Source: a bacterium (GTDB lineage: Bacteria > CSSED10-310 > JAJRTK01). Taken from it: a stretch of 6,329 bases of DNA. The stretch covers positions 1 to 6,329 of the forward strand of contig JAJRTK010000538.1 in the NCBI GenBank assembly GCA_024278345.1. The letters are read 5' to 3'. The notes below the pieces were generated by a model. It saw nothing but the letters and a program-made list of their open reading frames with translations. It was not told the origin of the DNA and ran no database searches. Positions 1 to 6,329 of the stretch are shown piece by piece (position 1 is the first letter of the stretch; every line of letters begins with the position of its first letter). A program made the translations under genes and the position numbers.

Positions 1-331
1 CGGCCAGCCCCGGCTCGCCCGTCACCGTCCCATCGCTGGCCAGCCCGGGAGGCAGGCCTTCTCCATCGTCTCCCGGAGCGCTCTCCCACTCGGCGCCCCA
101 CCCCTCGGCGCTAGCGGACCAACCATCGGAGCCGCCAGGATCCCCACAACGCGCTTCCCGGGCGGCGGGCACCGCGAAAAGCAGCACTCCAAGAACCGCG
201 GCGCAAACGACCAGAATCCGCTGCCGCCAACGACGACGGAACCCCGCGAGCCCGGACCTGAAAGCGAACAATCGACTCGAGCCCTGACGTGGCCTTCCCA
301 TCTCCCGGCACAACCCGAATTCCTTCGCCAT
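1..331 (-). CDS. Membrane-anchored or secreted protein, N-terminal fragment (runs off the left edge)
   Basis: Reading the minus strand from ATG at 331 gives an open frame of 110 codons to the window edge. The start is supported by a Shine-Dalgarno GGAG six bases upstream (AGGAGACAATC-ATG), and a plausible promoter lies about 75 bases further up. The protein opens with a long arginine-rich segment (residues 1-38, including FRRRWRQR). A hydrophobic stretch follows at about residues 39-56 (ILVVCAAVLGVLLFAVPA), then a Gly/Ser/Asp/Glu-rich, low-complexity tail. That is the layout of a signal anchor or a long signal peptide before an exported region. Met11 is an alternative start. The last visible residues contain PGLA twice, eight residues apart, perhaps the beginning of a repetitive region. 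I do not recognise the family. The gene is transcribed away from the CRISPR array and the metallophosphoesterase. Confidence 0.6.
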   Translation of the reverse strand, partial: MAKEFGLCREMGRPRQGSSRLFAFRSGLAGFRRRWRQRILVVCAAVLGVLLFAVPAAREARCGDPGGSDGWSASAEGWGAEWESAPGDDGEGLPPGLASDGTVTGEPGLA

Positions 332-407
332 GATTGTCTCCTCTCCCTTAGCTTCCAAGGCGGTTTCGGCTCAAAACCCCGCGTGGCCCCGACCGAAGAT
401 CTCTACC

Positions 408-435
408 ATCATATACCCTTCAAGGAATCGTTCAA
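408..435 (-). promoter_or_regulatory. Predicted sigma70-type promoter for the left-edge exported protein
   Basis: On the minus strand, TTGAAC (430-435) and TATGAT (408-413) are separated by 16 bases, close to the consensus TTGACA-N17-TATAAT. Transcription would start near position 401 and leave a 5' leader of about 70 bases before the ATG at 331. This is a match by eye only; no transcript evidence exists in the window. Confidence 0.4.
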
Positions 436-487: not shown

Positions 488-516
488 AGGAAAACCCCGG
501 CGCGCGCGGGGCTCCC
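488..516 (-). repeat. CRISPR repeat, copy 1 (leader-distal by inferred orientation)
   Basis: 29 bp, identical to the copy at 549-577. The internal stem is CCCCG (495-499) against CGGGG (507-511), with a seven-base CG-rich loop. Terminal repeats in I-E arrays often decay, but this one has no mismatch. Confidence 0.8.
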
Positions 517-548
517 TCGATCCATAGGGCCTAGCGCCTTTTCATTCC

Positions 549-577
549 AGGAAAACCCCGGCGCGCGCGGGGCTCCC
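549..577 (-). repeat. CRISPR repeat, copy 2 (leader-proximal by inferred orientation)
   Basis: 29 bp, identical to 488-516, with the same stem. Just to its right at 586-599 is a short GC hairpin (CGCCCC-CA-GGGGCG) that is not part of the repeat. The flank to 802 is GC-rich, unlike a typical AT-rich I-E leader. Confidence 0.8.
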
Positions 578-802: not shown

Positions 803-1993
803 ATGGCGATGCAGAGTTATTTTCCTCGCATTCTTTCTAGGCCCGTGCAGGGCGCGCGGTCGATTCTGGTCCTGAGCGACATCGAGATGGGGGAGCCTGG
901 TCCGTACGACGATTTTCCTCACGACGGGTTCCTGGCGGACCTGATTCTGAGCTACGTTCGGCCGCCGTACGACGGGATGCCTGTGGACCTGGTGCTCAAC
1001 GGGGATATTCTGGATCTACTGAAGACCTCCATTGGCGGAAATTACACCAGATACGTCACCGCGGACGTGGCCCTCCAAAAGATCCAGATCGTCCTGGACT
1101 CGCATCCTGGTTTCATGGAGGCGCTCAAGGCGTTTGGCTCGCATGGTTCGGGGAACAAGCGGATCTTTTTCATCGCGGGGAACCACGACACGGAGATCCT
1201 GTTTCCGGAGGTCCAGCGGCATCTTCGGGCGCTCTTGGCAGACGTGCCCCACTTCGAGTTCCCGGGGCTCCAGTTGACGCTGGGGCCGGTCTACTTCGAG
1301 CATGGGCACCAGCGGGACACGATTTTCGCCATGGATCCCGAGCAGCTTTTCGTGGAGTTCAACGGCGAAAAGATCCTTCGGCTGCCGTGGGGGACTTGTG
1401 CGCTTTTGGACGCGGCAATGCCTCTTCGGCCGCTCCTTTACCATCACGACCGGTTGCGGCCGCGGTTCCTGATCTTCGAGCGGATGCCCAAGATCCGGAA
1501 GGTGATCGTCAAGGCGTTCCGGCGGTATTGGATGCGGGACTACCTTTGGGAGAGCATCGTCCACTACGGCGATCCGACGCGGGAGCTGTCGTGGAAGATG
1601 ATCAGGGAGATCGTCTTCCGGCTGTACACGGCGGATCCGGATGTCGTGCTGAGCGACGACCTGGCGCAGCTCCTCAAGACGAGCCCCGACCTGGAAGTGG
1701 TGAGCATCGGTCACCTGCACACGCCGTCGTGGCAGATGCATGCTCGGCGATACCTGGTCCAGACCGGCTGCCTGCGGGACGAGTTCGAGATCCACCACTA
1801 CGACGACAAGCTCGTGCCCATCGACAAGTCGTACGGGGAGATCCTGCTGGTGGAGGGTCACGTGGAGGATGTGCGGCTCTTCCACGTCCAGGGTCCGGAG
1901 CGGCCTCCCGGCACCTATCCGGGCGATATCTTCGCCCTGTCGAAGCGGGTGCCGAAGCTCTTGAAGGAGGGGTGCCTGCAGATTGCCGTTTGA
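803..1993 (+). CDS. Calcineurin-like metallophosphoesterase (LpxH/UDP-diacylglucosamine-hydrolase-like superfamily)
   Basis: This is a 396-aa phosphoesterase with the metallophosphatase motifs in order: SDIEMG (25-30), NGDILD (66-71), AGNHD (125-129), EHGH (166-169) and GHLH (303-306). These residues hold the two active-site metals that hydrolyse phosphomonoester, phosphodiester or pyrophosphate bonds. The first motif is normally DxH but here is D26-I-E28, so a glutamate replaces the first metal-binding histidine. About 135 residues separate HGH from GHLH, longer than in typical LpxH (about 240 aa in total). That insert (about 175-300) is rich in Arg and aromatic residues and may form a cap or membrane-contact surface. 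No signal peptide is visible, so it is probably cytoplasmic. I chose ATG 803 because AAGGA precedes it by six bases (AAGGATATCCC-ATG) and the motif-bearing domain starts soon after. An in-frame TTG at 740 would add 21 unconvincing residues; ATG 809 is also possible. The substrate is unknown, and lipid A precursor processing is only one option. Confidence 0.85.
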   Translation: MAMQSYFPRILSRPVQGARSILVLSDIEMGEPGPYDDFPHDGFLADLILSYVRPPYDGMPVDLVLNGDILDLLKTSIGGNYTRYVTADVALQKIQIVLDSHPGFMEALKAFGSHGSGNKRIFFIAGNHDTEILFPEVQRHLRALLADVPHFEFPGLQLTLGPVYFEHGHQRDTIFAMDPEQLFVEFNGEKILRLPWGTCALLDAAMPLRPLLYHHDRLRPRFLIFERMPKIRKVIVKAFRRYWMRDYLWESIVHYGDPTRELSWKMIREIVFRLYTADPDVVLSDDLAQLLKTSPDLEVVSIGHLHTPSWQMHARRYLVQTGCLRDEFEIHHYDDKLVPIDKSYGEILLVEGHVEDVRLFHVQGPERPPGTYPGDIFALSKRVPKLLKEGCLQIAV

Positions 1994-2168: not shown

Positions 2169-2771
2169 ATGAGCACCTCCGAAAAGCTGAAAGCCTGCCA
2201 CTGTTGCGGGCTGATCCAGTGGGTTCCCGCCCTTGAACGACGAGGGCGGGTCCGGTGCGCACGATGCGGGACCCGGTTCGCCACGGTCCTGGACCGCGCT
2301 TCGGCTCTTCACCGAACCGCCGGATTCGCTCTGGCGGGGCTTCTTTTCTATTTTCCGGCCCTCTTCTTGCCGATTTTGGAGATCGAGCGGTTTGGGCAGA
2401 GCCACCGGTCGAGCGTTCTTGAAGGGTGCTGGAGCCTGCTTTCCCAGGGGGAATGGTTCGTCGGGGGCATCATTCTGGTCTTTTCCGTGATCCTGCCGCC
2501 GGTGAAGCTCTTGCTCCTGCTGGCCCTCTGCGGCCGGGGCCTCATGAGCCAGCGGCACAAAGCCTGGACCTACCGAATGATGGAGCGAATCGGAAGATGG
2601 GGGATGCTGGATGTGCTGCTCGTGGCGCTTTTGGTGGCCCTGGTGAAACTTGGGGGGCTGGTCCGCTTCCACCTGGGGCCGGCGGCGCTGGCCTTTGGCC
2701 TTTGTATCCTTGCCAGTATGCTGGCGGGAGCCTTTTTCGATCCCCATTCCGTGTGGGAGGAACCGGCGTGA
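2169..2771 (+). CDS. pqiA: PqiA-family inner-membrane protein (paraquat-inducible protein A), single domain
   Basis: This is a 200-aa integral membrane protein. A zinc-ribbon-like pair lies at the N-terminus, C10-x2-C13-G and C30-x2-C33-G, followed by about four hydrophobic segments (roughly 46-68, 95-120, 141-162 and 165-187). PqiA-family features include the FALPILEIE-like segment (here FLPILEIERFGQ, about residues 66-77) and the polar RxxKAWTYRMMERIGRWGMLDV stretch before the third segment. In E. coli, PqiA is an inner-membrane partner of the MCE protein PqiB in inter-membrane lipid transport and has two such domains. Here there is only one, as in many PqiA proteins outside enterobacteria. 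ATG 2169 is preferred because GTGAGG precedes it by nine bases; GTG 2154 would add five residues. The stop overlaps the next gene's GTG start by 4 bp, so translation is probably coupled. Confidence 0.88.
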   Translation: MSTSEKLKACHCCGLIQWVPALERRGRVRCARCGTRFATVLDRASALHRTAGFALAGLLFYFPALFLPILEIERFGQSHRSSVLEGCWSLLSQGEWFVGGIILVFSVILPPVKLLLLLALCGRGLMSQRHKAWTYRMMERIGRWGMLDVLLVALLVALVKLGGLVRFHLGPAALAFGLCILASMLAGAFFDPHSVWEEPA

Positions 2772-4300
2772 CGGAGGAGCCTGACAATCGGCCGCGAGAT
2801 TCCGGCAGCGACCCTCTCGAGGCTCTTTCAGCCAGCGATTATCCTCGGGCAGTCTTGGAGCGGCCCGCGGGGTCCCTGGGCTGGCTCCTTCTTCCCGCGG
2901 GTCTGGCGGCCGTGATCGTGGCGACTCTGCTTTTACCCTACTTGACCACCGGCGACACTCTTGTGGTGGTGAGCTTCCAGGAGGGCCACGGCATCCGAGC
3001 CGGAAACGCCCTGAAATACCGAGGCATCGTCGTGGGCGAAGTCAAGTCGGTCCGGCTTTCCCGCCATTTCGACGGAGTGGACGTCAACCTAGCCCTGGCG
3101 CCTGAGGCGGCCGATCTGGCCCGGGCGGGGAGCCGCTTTTGGATCGTGCGGCCGCTGTTGAGCCTTCGGCGAGTACAGGGCCTGGATACAATCATTGGGG
3201 CCCGATATTTGACGGTGCTTCCGGGGCCCCGTGATGCTCCTCGGCGAACTAAATTCACGGGACTGGAAGCACCGCCCGTCATCCAGGATCAGGGGCGAAT
3301 CGGCCTGGAACTCCTGCTGGAGGCAGACGGAAAGAAGGGGATGGATCGAGGCTCGCCAGTGCTCTACCGGGGGATCGTCGTGGGACGCATCCTGTCGGTA
3401 TCACTTTCCAGCGACGGAGCAAGCGTGGTGGCTCGGGCGGCCATGGAACCGAAGTACCAACCGCTCATCAGGGAGAACAGTCGATTTTGGATTTCGGGCT
3501 CAATGGAAATCGAGGGTGATTTCTTCTGGGGCCTGGCGAGCGGTGCCTTGGATCTGGGAGCTCTTCAGGCGATCACGGGCGGAGGTGTAGAGATGGCGAC
3601 GCCGGACAGGCCCGGCCCGCCGGTGGCGCAGGGTCACCGGTTCCGCATCGCCAATCAGCCGGAGGAGGGCTGGAGGGAGTGGCGGCCCAGGATCGCCATA
3701 GGCAGTCCTCTCCTGCCGGCGCGCTCCAGGCGACCCAAGCCCCTTGGGCTCCAGGTTCTTTGGAAAAAACCAGGCCTTCTCTATGGCGAGCGCAAGGTCT
3801 CGCGGACGGGATGGGGCCTCATGGTCGAGGGAATCGGCCTTCTTACACCCAAAGACCTCTTTCCTAGCTTCGCCAGGGAAAAGGTCATCGGAGGCAAAGC
3901 CACACTCCTAGTAGCGGGTAAGAAGCTGCAGATCACTCCCAAGAAAATCACGCGCCACGGTTTTCTGGCCATTCTCCCCATGAAAACGGAGGAACTCCCA
4001 GGGAACACCGAGGCCATGATCTGGCCCATGAAGCGAGTCCGGGGCGCGGATGATCCGGAAAACTGCGCGCTCTTCGCCAATCCTGGCAATGAAGCAATTC
4101 CTCTGGACGACGGCTCCATCCAAAAGGACGGGAAGAGCTGGCTCCTCGACAGTCGCATCCGCCTTGGCAACCGGTGGCACGGCGCCGCAGCCCTCTCCAG
4201 AAAAGATGGGCGGCTCATCGGAATCGTGGTGATCACCCAAGAGGAGGCCCGCATCCAGACTCTCGGCGACCTTCAACCCTTGGAGGCGCCGGAACCGTGA
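2768..4300 (+). CDS. pqiB: PqiB/MlaD-like MCE-domain lipid transport protein with an unusual C-terminal domain
   Basis: The protein is 510 aa, with GTG start 2768 preceded by a strong GGGAGGAA Shine-Dalgarno seven bases upstream. Residues 1-35 are cytoplasmic, and about 38-60 form one membrane segment. Two MCE domains follow, at about 62-153 and 178-280, each with the signature YRGIVVG (84-90 and 200-206) and the PqiB-type phrase SRFWI (122-126 and 238-242). The first domain continues with a GLDTIIGARYLTVLPG-like segment, typical of the family. MCE domains form hexameric rings that make a hydrophobic conduit across the periplasm. E. coli PqiB has three such domains and is about 546 aa, so this one has fewer. 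The remaining about 200 residues (309-505) are not MCE. They resemble a trypsin-like fold with the catalytic residues replaced: TGWGLMVEGIGLLTPKD at 347-363 and DGRLIGIVV at 480-488. The gene overlaps both neighbours by 4 bp, consistent with one operon. Confidence 0.87.
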   Translation: MTEEPDNRPRDSGSDPLEALSASDYPRAVLERPAGSLGWLLLPAGLAAVIVATLLLPYLTTGDTLVVVSFQEGHGIRAGNALKYRGIVVGEVKSVRLSRHFDGVDVNLALAPEAADLARAGSRFWIVRPLLSLRRVQGLDTIIGARYLTVLPGPRDAPRRTKFTGLEAPPVIQDQGRIGLELLLEADGKKGMDRGSPVLYRGIVVGRILSVSLSSDGASVVARAAMEPKYQPLIRENSRFWISGSMEIEGDFFWGLASGALDLGALQAITGGGVEMATPDRPGPPVAQGHRFRIANQPEEGWREWRPRIAIGSPLLPARSRRPKPLGLQVLWKKPGLLYGERKVSRTGWGLMVEGIGLLTPKDLFPSFAREKVIGGKATLLVAGKKLQITPKKITRHGFLAILPMKTEELPGNTEAMIWPMKRVRGADDPENCALFANPGNEAIPLDDGSIQKDGKSWLLDSRIRLGNRWHGAAALSRKDGRLIGIVVITQEEARIQTLGDLQPLEAPEP

Positions 4301-5666: not shown

Positions 5667-6206
5667 TCAGGATTTCCTCCGCCCTGAAGCCTGAGCCTGA
5701 GCCCGAGCCATGAGCAGGCTTCGAAACGCTTCCTTGAGCTTGGTGTTCCCGATGGGTTCCACGGCCTCGTCGATCCAGTCCCTTTCGGCGGGATCCACCG
5801 CTGCGGCGGGAACCTGCCTGATGGGGGGCTTGTGTGGCCTGGCTCGGACCCTCATGGAGAGTTTTTGGACCTCTTCGAATCCCGCATCTCGAAGCCTGTT
5901 CAGGAGCACAGCCGTCATGTTTTCTAGCTGCAATCGCCACTCCTGGCTGTCCACTTCGATCCGGACGGTTCCCGCCGACACACTTAGGACGCGGGTATGC
6001 GCGGCGATCATGGGTCCCACGGCATCACGCCAGGCCATGCCCATCCGCAAAATCGGGCGCCCCCGAAGTCCGGCGAGTACCTCTCCAACGGGCGCGGCAC
6101 CTTGTCCCGGTTTCGCCCGGGCAACACCTTCTCCGGAGTTGTGCTGCCCATTGTGGAACTGACCTGCCATGGTAGAAATCCGGTGGTGCTCGGCGGAACC
6201 GGTCAT
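5667..6206 (-). CDS. DUF721 (DciA-like) domain protein
   Basis: This is a 179-aa protein with a DUF721 domain at about residues 40-122. The family pattern is visible: W59-R-D-A-V-G-P-M-I-A-A-H-T, then GTVRIEV, then S-Q-E-W90-R-L-Q-L and an NRLRDAGFEEVQKLSMRV segment. This is the usual order of Trp, VGp, H-T, a beta strand and a second Trp. DciA members of this family interact with the replicative helicase DnaB in bacteria lacking DnaC or DnaI. Many DUF721 proteins remain uncharacterised, so that role is family-level inference. A proline-rich linker (124-135) leads to a C-terminal helix with DWIDEAV and LKEAFRSLLMARAQ. ATG 6206 overlaps the stop of the upstream frame as ATGA, which favours it; ATG 6170 (Met13) is the alternative. 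Neither has a strong Shine-Dalgarno. The stop at 5667 overlaps a downstream ATG. Confidence 0.82.
   Translation of the reverse strand: MTGSAEHHRISTMAGQFHNGQHNSGEGVARAKPGQGAAPVGEVLAGLRGRPILRMGMAWRDAVGPMIAAHTRVLSVSAGTVRIEVDSQEWRLQLENMTAVLLNRLRDAGFEEVQKLSMRVRARPHKPPIRQVPAAAVDPAERDWIDEAVEPIGNTKLKEAFRSLLMARAQAQASGRRKS
5674..5680 (-). promoter_or_regulatory. Strong Shine-Dalgarno inside the end of the DUF721 gene, before ATG 5667
   Basis: GGAGGAA on the minus strand ends six bases before ATG 5667, and that ATG overlaps the DUF721 stop in a TGATG arrangement. Such coupling usually marks a real downstream start. It is the main evidence for translation beginning here rather than at TTG 5409. The motif also encodes Arg-Lys codons of the DUF721 tail, so it could be coincidental. 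Confidence 0.45.
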
Positions 6207-6329
6207 CGGTGGCGGCTCTCGATCCCCTCGACTCCTGGAGTCTCGGCAGTCTGCCCGGTTTCCCGAAAGAGGGCCTCGGTCATGGTACCGGCCACGGTGC
6301 AGATTTCAGACGCCGCTCCAGGGCTTCCA
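6203..6329 (-). CDS. C-terminal end of an upstream gene (partial, frame uncertain)
   Basis: A minus frame open from the right edge ends at TGA 6203-6205 and overlaps the DUF721 start by 4 bp (ATGA), as expected of an operon neighbour. Its visible 41 residues end in TPGVEGIESRHR and match no family I know. A second frame is also open from the edge and ends at TGA 6280-6282 as EALERRLKSAPWPVP. Its codons look at least as natural, and its stop overlaps ATG 6283 in the same ATGA fashion. In that reading the larger gene ends at 6280 and the remaining 26 codons form a small coupled ORF or non-coding spacer. The window is too short to decide. Confidence 0.35.
   Translation of the reverse strand, partial: GSPGAASEICTVAGTMTEALFRETGQTAETPGVEGIESRHR

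Follow-up and report, generated by a model that had tools for sequence, protein, structure and literature searches.

The repeats and spacer at positions 488-577 probably constitute a minimal, leaderless one-spacer orphan array of type I-E, which lies apart from cas genes and is possibly served in trans by the I-E genes of its host. The unit is best read as a type I-E array, given its 29+32 geometry, intergenic position, period of 61 and I-E-like repeat; most likely this is nothing new but a satellite or remnant array of an ordinary sort. The window, i.e., the whole stretch of DNA analyzed, is an entire contig (C486, 6329 bp) of an uncultured bacterium, whose draft genome comprises 6.06 Mb in 550 contigs and is 87.9% complete. 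Its features around the array are as follows.

Positions 2-358, minus strand: left neighbour, an open reading frame running off the contig end, with a hydrophobic stretch in its translation.
Positions 408-435, minus strand: promoter-like site beyond the array, a consensus match only.
Positions 488-516, minus strand: repeat 2 (terminal), identical to the repeat at 549-577.
Positions 517-548, minus strand: single 32-bp spacer, GGAATGAAAAGGCGCTAGGCCCTATGGATCGA in the crRNA sense, no protospacer found.
Positions 549-577, minus strand: repeat 1, GGGAGCCCCGCGCGCGCCGGGGTTTTCCT, identical to 488-516 and leader-proximal on the assumption that the crRNA comes from the minus strand.
Positions 578-739, upstream on the minus strand: expected leader site, upstream of repeat 1, 71-78% G+C, no recognisable leader.
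Positions 803-1993, plus strand: right neighbour, a calcineurin-like metallophosphoesterase (PF00149, E=8e-5).

The two 29-bp repeats (AGGAAAACCCCGGCGCGCGCGGGGCTCCC) are mutually identical and start 61 bp apart. Because the bases bordering the two copies are unlike (A and C before, T and C after), 29 bp is the maximal length of the repeat. The 32-bp spacer between both copies shows low likeness to the flanks (31% and 19%). When the window was simulated 300 times with a first-order Markov model, the longest identical runs at a spacing of 40-99 measured 8-14, and chance is thus no explanation for the 29 observed. The unit is intergenic, with a leftward open reading frame (358 to the contig end) on one side and the rightward phosphoesterase gene (from about 803) on the other. 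The first-pass annotation had described identical 29-bp repeats around a 32-bp spacer, with no additional repeats and with the spacer absent elsewhere in the window. All of this proved to be real: the identity extends over 29 bp with a period of 61, there is no third copy of the repeat in the window and none elsewhere in the whole 6.06 Mb assembly at up to 3 mismatches, and the spacer has no second copy in the window or the genome. Near-identical direct repeats of 28-29 nt and a unique spacer of the 32-33 nt class, as used to recognise a CRISPR, are therefore present; the usual presence of more than one spacer, or spacer diversity, is not, there being a single spacer here. One-spacer arrays are known, and multiple spacers are usual and not strictly defining.

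Repetition alone is weak evidence of a CRISPR in this genome, because several isolated identical pairs per Mb occur in it. A scan of 0.86 Mb of the same genome's contigs revealed approximately 5-6 other isolated identical pairs (23-32 nt, periods of 54-71, unlike intervening sequence). In most of these background pairs the period is a multiple of 3 and an open frame spans the pair, suggesting that they are coding repeats. None has the 29+32 geometry, and their likeness to the I-E repeat is at most 15/29 even allowing shifts, vs. 18 here. Unlike these pairs, the unit in the window is intergenic and has a period, 61, that is not divisible by 3. It had also been pointed out at the outset that the same element scattered singly through intergenic regions would indicate a REP-like family; as the 6.06 Mb contained just these two copies even when 3 mismatches were allowed, with no scattered single ones, such a dispersed family was rejected. 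The core of the repeat had no exact match in IMG/VR or GTDB species genomes, an Rfam search returned only sub-threshold chance matches, and a blastn search of the whole unit against plasmids gave only weak partial matches with an E of 3 or worse.

Other dispersed repeats were observed in this genome. A palindromic element, GGTGGCACCGGCATCTTGCCGGTG, lies on both sides of a cas contig (L005:196-220 and 6020-6044) and is tandem elsewhere (L061:5710-5850; L102:28-150), and repeats of this kind are close to several contig ends. The right end of the window (6271-6329) is itself a dispersed repeat, showing 93% identity over 59 bp to a copy at positions 2904-2962 of contig C132, downstream of a Cas8e gene.

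The minus-strand repeat was identical to the E. coli I-E repeat, which served as the reference, at 18/29 positions in register, vs. 10/29 for the plus-strand sequence, and to the I-E repeat of another genome of the same phylum (G002, L028) at 17/28 positions. Among 1.63 million 29-mers from sampled contigs of its own genome, both strands included, 111 reached at least 18 against the E. coli repeat, and only 2 reached 18 against both the E. coli and the same-phylum repeats. The same-phylum repeat was read from a 56-repeat array with a period of 61, located downstream of cas3-cas8e-cse2-cas7-cas5-cas6e-cas1 and behind an A+T-rich stretch; because this full I-E locus has a period of 61, that value is I-E array geometry in these bacteria. 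In addition, the repeat in the window contains a central hairpin, as I-E repeats do, with a 5-pair stem (CCCCG/CGGGG) and a loop region of 7 nt. The tail has 7 nt vs. the usual 8-nt handle, and the folding energy of the hairpin is ordinary for its composition (z about -1). The G+C-rich hairpin and overall I-E layout noted in the first-pass annotation are thus supported by the comparison with both repeats.

There are no cas genes or cas remnants within the 6.3-kb window. The statement that the array stands without cas genes accordingly holds for its contig and fails for the genome, in which a search for them found Cas3, Cas8e, Cse2, Cas7e, Cas5e, Cas6e, Cas1e and Cas2e on three contigs. Contig C243 carries, in this order on one strand, Cse2, Cas7e, Cas5e, Cas6e, Cas1e and Cas2e; contig C388 carries Cas3 and a Cas8e cut by the contig end (L009:3-4450); and C132 carries a second, full-length Cas8e (L008:939-2528). 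The two Cas8e proteins are 59% identical to each other, and both score below the TIGR02547 curated cut-off; the complete same-phylum locus has a Cas8e that likewise scores below it. The ends of C132 and C243 have 87 identical bases in common, and the two contigs may be neighbours, an adjacency that is unsafe because these bases belong to a dispersed repeat. The presence of two Cas8e genes with one Cas6e points either to two I-E loci, one of them incompletely assembled, or to a mis-binned contig. Type I-E cas genes are therefore present in the same genome as far as the draft is correctly binned; its contigs could be mis-binned, since the assembly is fragmented. No close relatives of the Cas1e were found in viral contigs. 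Other cas-type genes were also seen. Contig C280 (L029:3890-9965) encodes a second CRISPR system with Cas3 (HD and helicase), Cas4 and a Cas1 match at 8115-8429, together with an array of a 37-nt repeat (GTCTGAAGCATCAATCCAGCAAAACAAGGATTGAAAC) running past the contig end. On contig C377 (L030:11195-13147), a 650-aa open reading frame has a Cas1 domain at 243-524 with its best match in the Cas4g/Cas1g family; its N-terminal 240 residues lie outside the Cas1 match, and there is no array in that stretch.

The location of I-E cas genes on other contigs makes a satellite array served in trans plausible, as the first-pass annotation had proposed, but no second array with this repeat was found to back that proposal. 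On C243, the 475 bp that separate cas2 from the contig end contain no array, and a repeat scan of 85 contig stretches of the genome showed no other array of the I-E kind. Searches of the genome for the hairpin-pair pattern (loop 7) returned the array in the window and one unlike hairpin pair on contig C52, and none of the hairpin-pair patterns brought up a further convincing array of I-E type. Because short-read assemblies readily lose arrays, the absence of a second one is weak evidence. Judged from sequence, the link between the array and the I-E system of the host is by subtype only, because the repeat was found nowhere else in the assembly.

An A+T-rich leader, usually found beside the first repeat, is lacking on either flank. 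As had been remarked from the outset, the surroundings are not A+T-rich: the G+C content is 78% at 578-677 and 59% at 388-487, and no promoter-like or IHF-like site adjoins the array. In particular, neither a sigma-70-like site nor an IHF-like site was found in 578-739, and the promoter-like site at 408-435 more likely serves the leftward open reading frame starting near 358. An A+T-rich leader is usual in adaptation-active arrays and absent from many orphan arrays. Because there is no recognisable leader, uptake of spacers is unlikely; the array probably gains new spacers no longer, and it may be hardly expressed.

The suggestion of a regulatory or anti-plasmid role for a single-spacer array found no support, and the search for spacer targets proposed along with it, carried out against phages, plasmids, IMG/VR pieces and the genome itself, returned none. 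Searches of 50,697 phage records and of 72,556 plasmids gave no spacer match; there was also no exact 20-mer of the spacer in IMG/VR and, at up to 3 mismatches, no match in the 8 phylum genomes except its own locus. One viral contig (L114) matches 18 nt of the 5' part of the spacer and then stops (20/32 overall); it was rejected as a target, since chance alone would be expected to yield matches of roughly this length in a collection of that size. Partial (seed) matches of the spacer to the window and the cas contigs were no better than those of shuffled spacers, and there is thus no sign of a cas-regulating guide RNA. Most spacers have no known match.

The comparison set comprised 8 genomes of the phylum, among which the source genome is the sole member of its class. 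The repeat is absent from the other 7 phylum genomes, and so is the locus; the sole phosphoesterase homologue there is 43% identical and has different genes upstream. The locus was not found in the genome_contigs collection either. Further along the window, positions 2169-4300 hold a PqiA gene followed by a gene for a protein with two MlaD stretches, which are probably an intermembrane lipid transport pair; the MlaD-type protein gene contains an internal DNA repeat (3017-3064 and 3365-3412, 71%).

The unit might instead be a relic, namely the two final repeats left over from an I-E array that has lost its cas genes and leader here and is inert today. The lack of a leader, a promoter and cas genes on the contig, the single spacer, and a repeat unlike anything else found in the genome all agree with such a history. 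Old arrays often end in a degenerate repeat, whereas both repeats here are fully identical, and the window contains no cas gene remnants; we regard this explanation as unlikely. Another possibility, to which we give only a slight chance, would be an off-target insertion, in which the host Cas1e-Cas2e put one spacer into a hairpin-like chromosomal site and duplicated 28-29 bp of it, creating a natural neo-CRISPR without a leader. Exactly one spacer, two identical repeats, no leader and a repeat unique in the genome are what is seen, and Cas1e and Cas2e are encoded in this genome. There is also a precedent, as overexpressed Cas1-Cas2 has been reported to insert spacers outside arrays (Nivala et al. 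2018, as cited in PMC11788318). However, likeness to I-E repeats at the 7e-5 level would be surprising in a random chromosomal site, though a preference of the integrase could select for such a site.

Least credible to us is the explanation that the unit is not a CRISPR at all but two G+C-rich hairpins that chance or duplication has paired in a genome rich in repeats; we assign this very little probability. It draws on the isolated identical pairs of 23-32 nt at a spacing of 54-71 that occur several times per Mb here and on the ordinary folding energy of the hairpin, but in most of those other pairs the period is a multiple of 3 and the frame is open, and they show neither the 29+32 geometry nor likeness to the I-E repeat.

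Several points count against the preferred reading, a leaderless one-spacer I-E array: the lack of a leader, a promoter, a spacer target and a second array with the same repeat, the stretch without an array after cas2 on C243, the dimensions of stem, loop and tail, and a fragmented draft in which contigs could be mis-binned. If this reading is correct, the array is possibly weakly active or inert. Given transcription of the minus strand, for which no leader or promoter is seen, cleavage by Cas6e would fall 3' of the CCCCG/CGGGG hairpin and release one crRNA with a short TTTTCCT-type 5' handle, which could be loaded into Cascade in trans and would then guide Cas3 to a matching invader. Such an array carries little weight alone, as isolated short arrays are common. 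The case shows that cas genes missing from a short contig can sit in the rest of the genome, and the base rate of isolated pairs implies that a two-repeat unit should be called a CRISPR on the strength of its period, reading frame and repeat likeness and not for mere repetition. If a close strain showed an empty site, the locus would be a natural example of the birth of a CRISPR locus.

Isolated arrays are well described (PMC5294841, PMC12814883, PMC8616872), and it is established that arrays can work together with cas loci far away from them (PMC5294841, PMC12814883). The array shares with the I-E arrays of E. coli and G002 the period of 61, identical repeats of 28/29 nt, the central CCCC...GGGG hairpin and a CC close to the repeat end as read on the crRNA strand. 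It differs from both in its one spacer, the lack of a leader, cas genes that do not adjoin it and a 5-pair stem with a 7-nt loop region, and 11/29 positions of its repeat differ from the E. coli repeat. Like orphan arrays such as E. faecalis CRISPR2 and E. coli I-F CRISPR4, it consists of repeats and spacer without adjacent cas genes; in such arrays, however, the repeat is common to the matching cas system or its relatives, whereas here the link is one of subtype. The mini-CRISPR arrays of prokaryotic viruses and proviruses, reviewed in PMC8616872, likewise have a single spacer between two complete repeats. In contrast to them, the array described here has no spacer target and shares its repeat with no other array of the host, and it lies among housekeeping-type neighbours (phosphoesterase, PqiA, MlaD and DciA) with no sign of a provirus.
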